Shown: piece after piece, positions 44,607-54,567 of the stretch
Position numbering within the stretch: position 1 is the stretch's first letter
Layout: each line of letters opens with the position of its first letter
Assembly (NCBI GenBank): GCA_012033255.1
Contig: JAAUSF010000009.1
Coordinates: forward strand, 1 to 64,000
From: Cyanobacteria bacterium RU_5_0
GTDB lineage: Bacteria; Cyanobacteriota; Cyanobacteriia; Elainellales; Elainellaceae
Length of the DNA: 64,000 nt
Direction: 5' to 3'
Notes under the pieces: model-generated
Database searches by the model: none
Seen by the model: the letters and a program-made list of their open reading frames with translations, nothing else
Told to the model about the DNA's origin: nothing
Position numbers and translations under genes: made by a program

Positions 44607-45340
44607 ATGTTTGCCCGTCAAAAACTCTACGAAGGTAAAGCCAAAATTCTCTACGCGACGGACGATCCAGGTATTTTATTAACTTATTTTAAGGATGATG
44701 CAACGGCATTTAATGCTCAAAAGCGAGGCAGTATTGCAGGCAAAGGCGAGATGAATTGTGCGATCTCCAGCCATTTGTTTCGACTCTTAGAGGCACAGGG
44801 GATTCCAACCCACTGGATCGATCGCCCCGATCCCAACACGATGCGGGTGCGTTCTGTAAAGATTGTGCCATTAGAAGTCGTAGTCAGGAACATTGCGGCT
44901 GGGAGTCTCTGTCAACAGACGGGAATCGCTCTAGGTACGATTCTCAACCCTCCTCTGGTGGAGTTCTACTATAAAAATGACGCATTGGGTGATCCTCTAC
45001 TGACTCGCGATCGTCTGCTGCTGCTGGAACTTGCAACCCCTGAACAGGTTGATCAGCTTCGGAGTATGGCATTACAGATCAACGAAATCCTCTCTGATTT
45101 TTCCAGAGGTGCAACATTACGCTAGTAGATTTTAAATTGGAGTTTGGATTAGATGCAGATCACACTCTACTCCTTGCAGACGAAATTAGCCCCGATACCT
45201 GTCGGCTATGGAATCAGACCACTACCGACCCTGCCCAACGAGTCATGGATAAAGACCGTTTCCGCCACGATCTGGGTGATGTTGAAGCGGCTTATCGGCA
45301 AGTGCTAGAAAGGGTTCTGGCACAGCCAATTCAAACATAG
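44607..45340 (+). pseudogene. purC: SAICAR synthetase PurC, frameshifted
   Basis: Together the two frames encode a full-length (about 242 residue) phosphoribosylaminoimidazole-succinocarboxamide synthase of purine synthesis. The first frame holds KLYEGKAKILY, FKDDATAFNAQK and PLEVVVRNIAAGS and stops at TAG 45123-45125 after FSRGATLR. The second continues from [20 protein letters not shown], with ISPDTCRLW, to 45340. The joint TTACGCTAGTAGAT has net one base missing, or five extra (CGCTA). PurC is essential for purine synthesis, so a sequence error is more likely than loss unless another copy exists. Confidence 0.9.
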
Positions 45341-50535: not shown

Positions 50536-51806
50536 ATGGGGGATAGAGAGATAAAGGAACTGCAAGATGGGGAGCAGGCTCGTAAGTCTGACAATCCCCT
50601 CATTCCCTCATCCCCTCACCCCCCTCCCCTCTCATCCTCTGCTTACCGAATTTTTGTTAGCACTGGAGAAGTGTCTGGCGATCTCCAGGGAGCGTTGTTG
50701 ATTCAGGCATTGCGGGATCGGGCGGAGCAGGCTGGAATCAGGCTGGAGATTCCGGCGTTGGGTGGGCAACGGATGGCAGAGGCAGGAGCGGTGTTACTGG
50801 CGGATACGAGTGCGATCGGCTCGATCGGCATTTTGGAATCGGTGCCCTATATTTTCTCGACGCTGCGAATTCAACGCCAAGTGAAGCACCATTGCGCCAA
50901 TATCCGCCGGATCTAGTGGTGATGATCGATTATGTCAGCCCCAATCTGGCGATGGGTCGCTTCGTGCGACAGCATCTTCCGCAGGTTCCGACGGTGTATT
51001 ACATTGCGCCGCAGGAGTGGGTTTGGTCAATCAATAATCGCAATACGAATCTGATTTTGCAAATTACCGATCGCCTCCTGGCGATTTTTCTGGGTGAAGC
51101 GGAGTATTACCAGAAGCGTGGCGCAAAGGTGACTTGGGTTGGGCATCCCTTGGTCGATCGAATGCAGATGGCACCGGGGCGATCGCAAGCCCGATCGATG
51201 TTGGGCATCTCCGCCGAACAAATCGCCATTGCGCTGATTCCGGCATCGCGTCGTCAAGAACTCAACTATATTTTGCCCGTGATGTTTGAGGCGGCGCGGC
51301 AGATCCAGGCTCAACTTCCCCAGGTTCATTTCTGGATTCCGCTATCTCTGGAGATTTATCGTCCTATTTTGGAGCAGGCGATTCGTCACTATGGACTACG
51401 GGCGACGTTGGTAGCGGATCAGTCGCAAGTGGTGATTGCAGCGGCGGATTTGGCAATTGCGAAGTCGGGTACGGTTAACCTGGAAACAGCGCTGCTTAAC
51501 GTGCCGCAAGTGGTGATGTATCGACTCAGTGAGGCAACTGCCTGGATCGCAAGGCATGTGCTGAAATTCTCTGCTCCATTCGTATCGCCGCCAAACTTAG
51601 TGATGATGGAGGCGATCGTCCCGGAACTCTTGCAGGATAAAGCGACCCCAGAACGGATCACTCAAGAGGCGCTAGATATCTTGCTAAACCCAGCCCGACA
51701 GCAACAGATGCTCACTGATTATCAGCGAATGCGCCAGAAATTGGGTGATGTGGGAGTGTGCGATCGGGCTGCACAGGCAATTCTTCAACTTTTAGAGAAA
51801 ATTTAG
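50536..51806 (+). pseudogene. lpxB: Lipid A disaccharide synthase LpxB, frameshifted
   Basis: LpxB joins UDP-diacylglucosamine and lipid X. The first frame (50536-50916) contains YRIFVSTGEVSGDLQGALL and SIGILESVPYIFSTLRIQRQ, then runs out of frame. The second resumes at LRQYPPDLVVMIDYVSPN and holds YYIAPQEWVWS and IPASRRQELNYILP through to 51806. Restoring one T in CACCATTGCGCC (near 50892) joins them. About 36 residues before YRIFVSTGE come from heptamer repeats, and no start codon lies closer to the core. Loss of lpxB would be lethal or strongly deleterious, so an error is suspected. Confidence 0.9.
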
Positions 51807-52427: not shown

Positions 52428-52715
52428 GCCTTCATTTTAATTTTTCAAAGAAAGCCTTTTAAAGCTTGCACATTTGAAATTTCCCTGCTTGATCTCCCTC
52501 CCCCCAGGAGAGGGGGATTTGTGTTTTGGCTCATGTTTAGCGGGAAATGCTAAGCTAAACCAGAATCTATTCCTGTCGCCATGCCTAGGCATTTGACTTT
52601 GCTGACGTGTACCATCTACCACCACTGACGAGAGGATTATCAACCGAGCCAGTAATCTTAACTAAAAAGGGTGAGCCGCATCGCGACAGGACTCATCCAT
52701 CGTTTTACGCTTTTT

Positions 52716-53787
52716 ATGGTTACAACCTCCTGGACTCGTCGCCACGTTATATCTCTCGCTGACTTTCAACCCGATGAATATGATACTGTCCTCCAGACGG
52801 CTGCTAGTTTTCAAGAAGTGCTGTCTCGCCGTACCAAAAAAGTTCCGGCACTGCAAGGGCAAGTTATCGCCAATTTATTTTGAGCCATCTACACGCACCC
52901 GCAGCAGTTTTGAACTAGCGGCTAAGCGCCTGTCTGCTGATACGCTGAACTTTGCTCCTAGTACATCTTCCCTGACCAAGGGCGAAACGATTCTAGATAC
53001 AGCTAAAACTTACCTGGCAATGGGCACCGATATTATGGTGATCCGTCATCGGGAAGCTGGAGTGCCTCAAGCGATCGCCAACGAAATGGATCGTCTGCAA
53101 ACTCGTGTTGGCGTCTTCAATGCCGGAGATGGACAGCACGAACATCCCTCCCAGGCTCTCCTCGACCTGTTCACCATCTGTACCTTGCTCGACCCTGAAC
53201 ACCCTCGTTTATCTCTCTTGAAGGACAAAAAGATTGCGATCGTCGGGGATATTCTGCATTCTCGTGTGGCGCGATCGAACATTTGGAGCCTCACTGCAAG
53301 CGGAGCCGAAGTTCATCTCGCGGGACCGCCGACTCTGTTACCGAAATGGTTTGCAGACTACATAGGAAGTTCTGAGTTCTCCGGTTTAAGTTCTCAATTA
53401 AAAGACCCAACTCAAAACTCAAAACTCAAAACTCAAAACTCAAAACTCTCTTCTACTTCTCGCAAGCTTTTCATTCACTGGACTCTTGAATCGGCGCTTG
53501 AGGATGCAGATTTTGTCATGACTTTGCGCTTACAACGGGAACGAATGACGCAACATTTGTTGCCCAGTCTACGGGAATATCATCAGCGATATGGGATTAC
53601 GATCGATCGGCTCAAACTCTGCAAGCCGGATGTAAAGGTGCTGCATCCGGGTCCCGTGAATCGAGGGGTGGAGATTAGCTCTGAATTAATGGATGATCCG
53701 ACGTTCAGTTTAATTTCACAGCAAGTCACAAGTGGCGTTGCTGTACGGATGGCGTTGCTGTATCTGATGGGCAGTGGTAAAGCTTGA
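52716..53787 (+). pseudogene. pyrB: Aspartate carbamoyltransferase catalytic subunit PyrB, frameshifted and carrying a heptamer insertion
   Basis: PyrB forms carbamoyl-aspartate in pyrimidine synthesis. The first frame starts at ATG 52716 and runs to GQVIANLF before a TGA at 52881. The second resumes with [20 protein letters not shown], then [11 protein letters not shown] and [12 protein letters not shown]. The T run at 52877-52881 has four T where NLFFEP would need six (net minus two). A low-complexity insert containing [12 protein letters not shown] is encoded by five CTCAAAA heptamers (53411-53445) and leaves the frame open. Catalytic motifs are otherwise intact. Confidence 0.9.
53411..53445. 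repeat. STRR heptamer, 5 x CTCAAAA, inside pyrB
   Basis: Five exact CTCAAAA units are preceded by opposite-strand heptamers (GAGTTCT, AAGTTCT) at 53366-53392. They form the same inverted heptamer element as at 49582-49675. Confidence 0.92.
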
Positions 53788-53890
53788 CCTTACAGCGATT
53801 TTCAGAACGTGAGATGATGAACGTGGTGATCGTCACTTTGATCAAACACATCAACACGATCGTCATCGACTACAATAATCCCAACAATCA

Positions 53891-54322
53891 TCATTCCTTC
53901 ATACGCATCATCCCATGAACCACTTGCATCTTGTAGACCCATTGATACTCGGATATTAACCGATCAATGAACGAATCAAAATCTTCCAATTCTGGTCGGA
54001 TGAATGCTCGTAACACGTGATGATCTGAATCACTGAATTGAATATCATATAGCAGCCCTAAATCATTTGTAAGAAGGGGGTGGAGGGGGGCAGTGCCCCC
54101 TCCTTGGGGACTTCGTCCCCAAACCTCTTTGGGTTTTCTCACAATTGATTTGGGATTGCTATATCCTTTCAAAATCAATAACACTCGTGCATTGCGACTC
54201 GGATTATTCCGAGTAATGTTTACCCTGGCTCTCAACAAGCTTTCTCCGCCGGATGTGCTTGCAAAATTGAAAGTTTGTTCAAAGAAACTCAGCATAATGA
54301 TGTGTTCTGTATTGTGCTTCAT
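53891..54322 (-). CDS. Hypothetical protein with an in-frame MITE insertion
   Basis: The 143-residue frame contains a 38-residue stretch (from SNPKSIVRKPKEVWG to TNDLGLLY) encoded by a 114-bp MITE. Removing it joins RVLLILKGY to DIQFSDSDHHVLRAFIRPEL without a frame change, giving about 105 residues. The flanking segments look like one continuous protein. The start may be the ATG at 54322 or the ATG at 54295 (MLSFFEQTF). I do not recognise the family. Whether the interrupted protein folds is unknown. Confidence 0.6.
   Translation of the reverse strand: MKHNTEHIIMLSFFEQTFNFASTSGGESLLRARVNITRNNPSRNARVLLILKGYSNPKSIVRKPKEVWGRSPQGGGTAPLHPLLTNDLGLLYDIQFSDSDHHVLRAFIRPELEDFDSFIDRLISEYQWVYKMQVVHGMMRMKE
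54049..54162. mobile_element. MITE, 114 bp, inserted in frame in a coding gene
   Basis: Terminal inverted repeats are ATAGCAGCCCTAAATCA on the left and, read from the right, ATAGCAATCCCAAATCA, continuing with good similarity for about 27 bases. The centre holds two palindromes (GGGGGCAGTGCCCCC and GGGGACTTCGTCCCC). Flanking TAT/TA duplication fits a TA-targeting (IS630/Tc1-type) element. There is no ORF of its own. Confidence 0.8.
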
Positions 54323-54567
54323 CTCTTACAACGCAGGTTTGTTGCAGAATATTCCAATCAAATGAGTAAATTTTTTGAATCACATTGATGGCAAGGATTC
54401 CGAAATTTGTAGAGAAAGTTGTGTGGTGAAACTAAGAACCAACCATCAGGTGTATTTCAATCATCAGGTGTGTTCTAATCATCGGGTGCATCTTTTCACT
54501 GTGCCAAATCTGTAAGTAGCACTGTCTGTATTCCAGAAATAACTGAACTGAAATAGGGTCTAAATAG

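Follow-up and report, generated by a model that had tools for sequence, protein, structure and literature searches.

An IS630-type MITE that probably disrupted a small beta-sandwich gene of a cyanobacterium while leaving a reading frame open

In this study, we analysed a stretch of 64,000 nucleotides from Cyanobacteria bacterium RU_5_0 (hereafter the window), in which a 143-aa open reading frame (ORF) on the minus strand (53891-54322) reads through a palindromic MITE. We consider it probable that this IS630-type MITE disrupted a small beta-sandwich gene, that its in-frame state is due to chance and that the gene was thereby probably inactivated. The MITE would have been moved, putatively by an IS630-type transposase (that transposase was not found in the assembly), into a TA midway along a small gene for a beta-sandwich domain that appears H-type-lectin-like. 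Its length and frame would by chance have kept the reading frame open, so that a longer ORF became readable, and the cut through the third beta-strand would most likely yield a product misfolded relative to the family, with probable loss of function. The original prediction had suggested that a transposon may here be becoming protein sequence; the cut strand, the poor model of the ORF and the conserved C-terminal motif lying out of frame speak against a working protein, and the evidence favours disruption over use of the insert.

In the assembled sequence the MITE does lie within the ORF, has no stop in the host frame and adds a multiple of three, as had been claimed. The borders of the element were set by aligning its genomic copies and have TA on each side (Table 1). 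What had been described as a 114-bp palindrome is indeed palindromic, folding into a long and strong hairpin (-57.6 kcal/mol, z -7.35), but the element itself measures 112 bp, and the added length of 114 bp, or 38 codons, includes one TA. Inverted ends are likewise present where repeats of about 27 bp had been suggested, with the exact count by inspection being 21/26 equal positions in an imperfect pair (TAGCAGCCCTAAATCATTTGTAAGAA / TAGCAATCCCAAATCAATTGTGAGAA). Of the proposed TAT duplication, the duplication stands in the form of TA, as in other copies, and the third T belongs to the host. The host gene starts at an ATG at 54322 or 54295, of which the latter fits the homologues better. When the minus strand is read in three frames, the host continues after ...ISEYQ in another frame as MGLQDASGSWDDAYEGMMIVGIIVV; the last ~16 residues of the ORF (WVYKMQVVHGMMRMKE) are not the continuation conserved in the family, and GLRDWSGDWDD, the stretch that the family conserves best, is encoded in the frame of the C-terminal part, outside the 143-aa ORF.

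Table 1. Positions in the window of the MITE, its target duplication and the parts of the host gene
Feature	Position	Strand	Remark
MITE, non-autonomous, IS630-type ends TAGCAGCCC...GGGATTGCTA	54050..54161	.	112 bp
TA target duplication, left copy	54048..54049	.	
TA target duplication, right copy	54162..54163	.	
Host gene, N-terminal part	54162..54322	-	ends ...LILKGY
Host gene, middle part DIQFSDSDHHVL...ISEYQ	53943..54049	-	same frame as N-terminal part
Host gene, C-terminal part MGLQDASGSWDDAYEG...	53802..53942	-	frame differs from rest
Tail of 143-aa ORF, WVYKMQVVHGMMRMKE	53891..53942	-	frame not used by the family
Predicted peptides across the insert junctions of the ORF			LILKGYSNPK / GLLYDIQFSDSDHH

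The joined flanks in the ORF's frame alone found no homologue in 60 relatives, a set that holds no genome of the host's genus, or in 85,000 species genomes. A query combining the flanks with the second frame led to a distantly similar protein, encoded by a relative from the same taxonomic family. Homologues were recovered at 17 loci (L041-L057), as small proteins and as N-terminal domains of longer proteins, from cyanobacteria, proteobacteria, actinobacteria, Bacteroidota, Gemmatimonadota, Chloroflexota and Myxococcota. The alignment that found these loci included the window sequence (row three), though their confirmation relied on the first row; the weak matches L031-L033 were left out of the set. 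The family shares the motif GF.V.FS..DHHLG..V.......VT.TFGLRDWSGDWDD.YEG, and one of the longer proteins bearing the domain at its N-terminus weakly resembles M12-type metallopeptidases. The flanks had been expected to align as one protein lacking the 38 residues, and they do so at all 17 loci, across many phyla; homologues bearing the 38 residues, which would have spoken against an insertion, were not seen among them (0/17). An insertion-free ancestor can thus be inferred from distant homologues, at ~30% identity; an empty insertion site was not found in the relatives, none of which is of the same genus. Neither the host nor its family had a significant match in Pfam, NCBIfam, PHROGs or PDB, and relatives of the family were absent from plasmid, phage and viral collections.

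A profile of 18 domains, from which the window sequence was excluded, scored the host joined without the insert in both frames at 54.3 bits and the same two frames with the insert in place at 37.4 bits, while the joined flanks in the ORF's frame alone reached 21.3 bits and the C-terminal motif alone in its own frame 26 bits. The 143-aa ORF as given scored 7.8 bits, against 7.9 for the best of 200 shuffles. By this profile the frame is the same on both sides of the insert. It could be argued that the open frame is a chance one and that the host gene does not exist, given that the ORF's frame has no homologue and that other copies of the MITE, too, lie in joined frames about as long (up to 108 aa). 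However, the 54.3 bits of the joined flanks with the second frame, set beside 7.9 for the shuffles, refute this explanation unless the family match is spurious, and we regard it as extremely unlikely; judged by its homologues, the host gene is real.

The family model, built from 17 sequences, is a six-stranded beta-sandwich (pLDDT 90). The solved structures closest to it are snail agglutinins of the H-type lectin group, the resemblance being weak: its best PDB match is the Helix aspersa agglutinin 4q56 (probability 0.97, TM 0.50, E 0.09). The host domain may be H-type-lectin-like. The insert falls between the residues equivalent to F41 and D42 of the homologue L048, within the third predicted beta-strand (34-45) and adjoining the invariant G40. 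Since the insert cuts this strand, the product is most likely without the family fold. When the 143-aa ORF with its insert was modelled with the same family, pLDDT dropped to 46.7, with residues 37-89 below 50, for which there are two possible causes, the insert and/or the missing C-terminal motif. The models therefore suggest that the domain with the insert would not fold normally.

On the other hand, the fusion might work as it stands, with the 38 residues as a tolerated loop and the downstream frame change as a sequencing error. The frame is open across the MITE, breaks in purC, lpxB and pyrB (see below) suggest base errors in the assembly and possibly one in the host as well, and the C-terminal motif is so well conserved in its own frame, at the 26 bits given above, that little decay is suggested. 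Yet the insert sits not in a loop but halfway along the third strand, where it adjoins the invariant glycine; the insert-bearing ORF gives a poor model, and the insert occurs in no relative, all of which make a working fusion distinctly unlikely. Translation across the end of the element gives ...LGLLYDIQFS, and this LGLLY could in principle replace part of the lost strand and give a partly folded product. The fuller proposal, in which the fusion is translated and folds, LGLLY filling in for the missing half of the strand and the other inserted residues looping out at the surface, so that the MITE would be part of a cyanobacterial lectin-like protein, we consider very unlikely indeed. Disruption of the gene thus remains the reading we prefer.

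The identification of the repeat as a MITE was borne out: it is short, has inverted ends, carries no transposase and is dispersed with TA at its borders. A search of the genome, as the original prediction had proposed for the inverted repeats, returned ~20 full copies with 90-97% identity plus partial copies, a repetition far beyond chance, and TA borders nearly all ends of the full copies; with so many copies, the MITE is therefore a genuine mobile repeat. When relatives were searched with the MITE, matching ends were recovered elsewhere in cyanobacteria. At one locus (L068), two such ends lie ~1.1 kb apart with two overlapping ORFs between them, bearing a winged-helix HTH_33 domain and a DDE_3 transposase domain; a second locus (L079) has paired ends with a DDE_3 ORF, and a third (L069) has a DDE_3 ORF with one end seen. 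The ends shared with these HTH_33/DDE_3 elements, together with the TA duplication, place the MITE in the IS630/Tc1-mariner group.

A search with the first ORF of L068 found no such transposase in the host's own assembly, which is 89% complete, so that this absence is no proof. The DDE_3 transposases of the own genome were considered as parent of the MITE and rejected, as no MITE-type ends were found beside their ORFs. In two copies of the MITE (L024 1501-1664 and L025 1501-1669), the sequence breaks off at one common internal point, past which each copy continues into a sequence of its own; the two continuations are related, both start with TGTTACCCGACACG and both lie close to contig ends. 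The pattern is suggestive of an insertion sequence that targets the hairpin of the MITE, for which the insertion of IS elements into REPs offers a comparison (PMC1525189). In another cyanobacterium, an ORF (L087 1124-1583, minus strand) likewise reads across the end of a MITE whose ends are similar, and the end peptide LTNDLGLLY is common to that ORF and the window element.

The length of the insert is divisible by three in 6/20 full copies, and 12/120 combinations of copy, strand and phase give an open passage. A single open passage through the MITE is thus an event of about 10%, noticed because it is open. The exactness of the 38 residues is itself uncertain to the base. In a stretch of ~9 kb within the window, purC (44607-45313), lpxB (50536-51806) and pyrB (52671-53787) are each split between two frames. 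As purC is the sole copy in the genome and its two pieces align with contiguous stretches of its family, a base error is the most likely cause of its break, and the three breaks are probably all base errors of the assembly. In pyrB, in-frame heptamer repeats (CTCAAAA)n at 53410-53450 interrupt the Asp/Orn-binding domain. In addition, the contigs C97 and C199 (L016 1-323, L019 1-325) overlap, so that one MITE site has been assembled twice, and the two versions differ by three indels and one substitution in 325 bp, one of the indels, of 2 bp, lying inside the MITE. The nearby breaks and this mismatch together imply that the host's downstream frame change may be either true decay or a base-calling error and that the insert length is uncertain.

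The insertion might also be real with a true length that three does not divide, the G/C runs in the MITE having been miscounted. These runs do vary between copies (copy length 107-113 bp), the window copy has two extra G relative to the copy consensus (112 vs 110 bp), and the site on C97 and C199, with three indels in 325 bp, has a 2-bp difference inside the MITE. However, sequence where contig ends overlap is probably of low quality and may make errors look more frequent than they are, and the profile recovers one and the same frame before and after the insert, as a correct length would predict. We hold a miscount to be possible though rather unlikely, and retain a chance in-frame insertion that disrupted the gene as the best explanation.

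In-frame insertions of MITEs or palindromes in ORFs are already known from Rickettsia and Coxiella, and the window case is one more. Rickettsia palindromic elements (RPEs) have been reported in protein-coding genes (Ogata 2000, 2002; reviewed in PMC10969869). RPEs are likewise short palindromic repeats that lie in frame within a gene and add a few dozen residues, but they recur in frame across many genes, whereas here one of ~20 copies lies in a gene and the fold core is struck; among the other full copies, none was found within a long joined reading frame. QMITE2 of Coxiella makes in-frame insertions mid-way in hypothetical ORFs (PMC5896051). Our case resembles it as an in-frame MITE mid-way in a small hypothetical ORF, and differs in element family and host, and in that homologues here establish the family of the host protein. 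With the IS630/Tc1-mariner elements and MITEs of cyanobacteria it shares the TA duplication, the inverted repeats and relatives with HTH and DDE_3 ORFs, while the assembly of the window's genome yielded no matching transposase. Nezha, reportedly described by Zhou in 2008 as a MITE of cyanobacteria (as cited in PMC10969869), is alike in being a cyanobacterial MITE.

If the fusion were made and working, it would offer a cyanobacterial parallel to the RPEs and a clear-cut way to test the conversion of transposon DNA into protein. On present evidence the case is one of ordinary insertional disruption, and as about one in ten insertions of this MITE would look in-frame, such cases can mislead. The widespread beta-sandwich family with the motif DHHLG...GLRDWSGDWDD.YEG, which has no Pfam model, may prove more lastingly useful. 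Beside the host gene, an 18-bp unit, CAACCATCAGGTGTATTT, is repeated three times in tandem (54440-54493).
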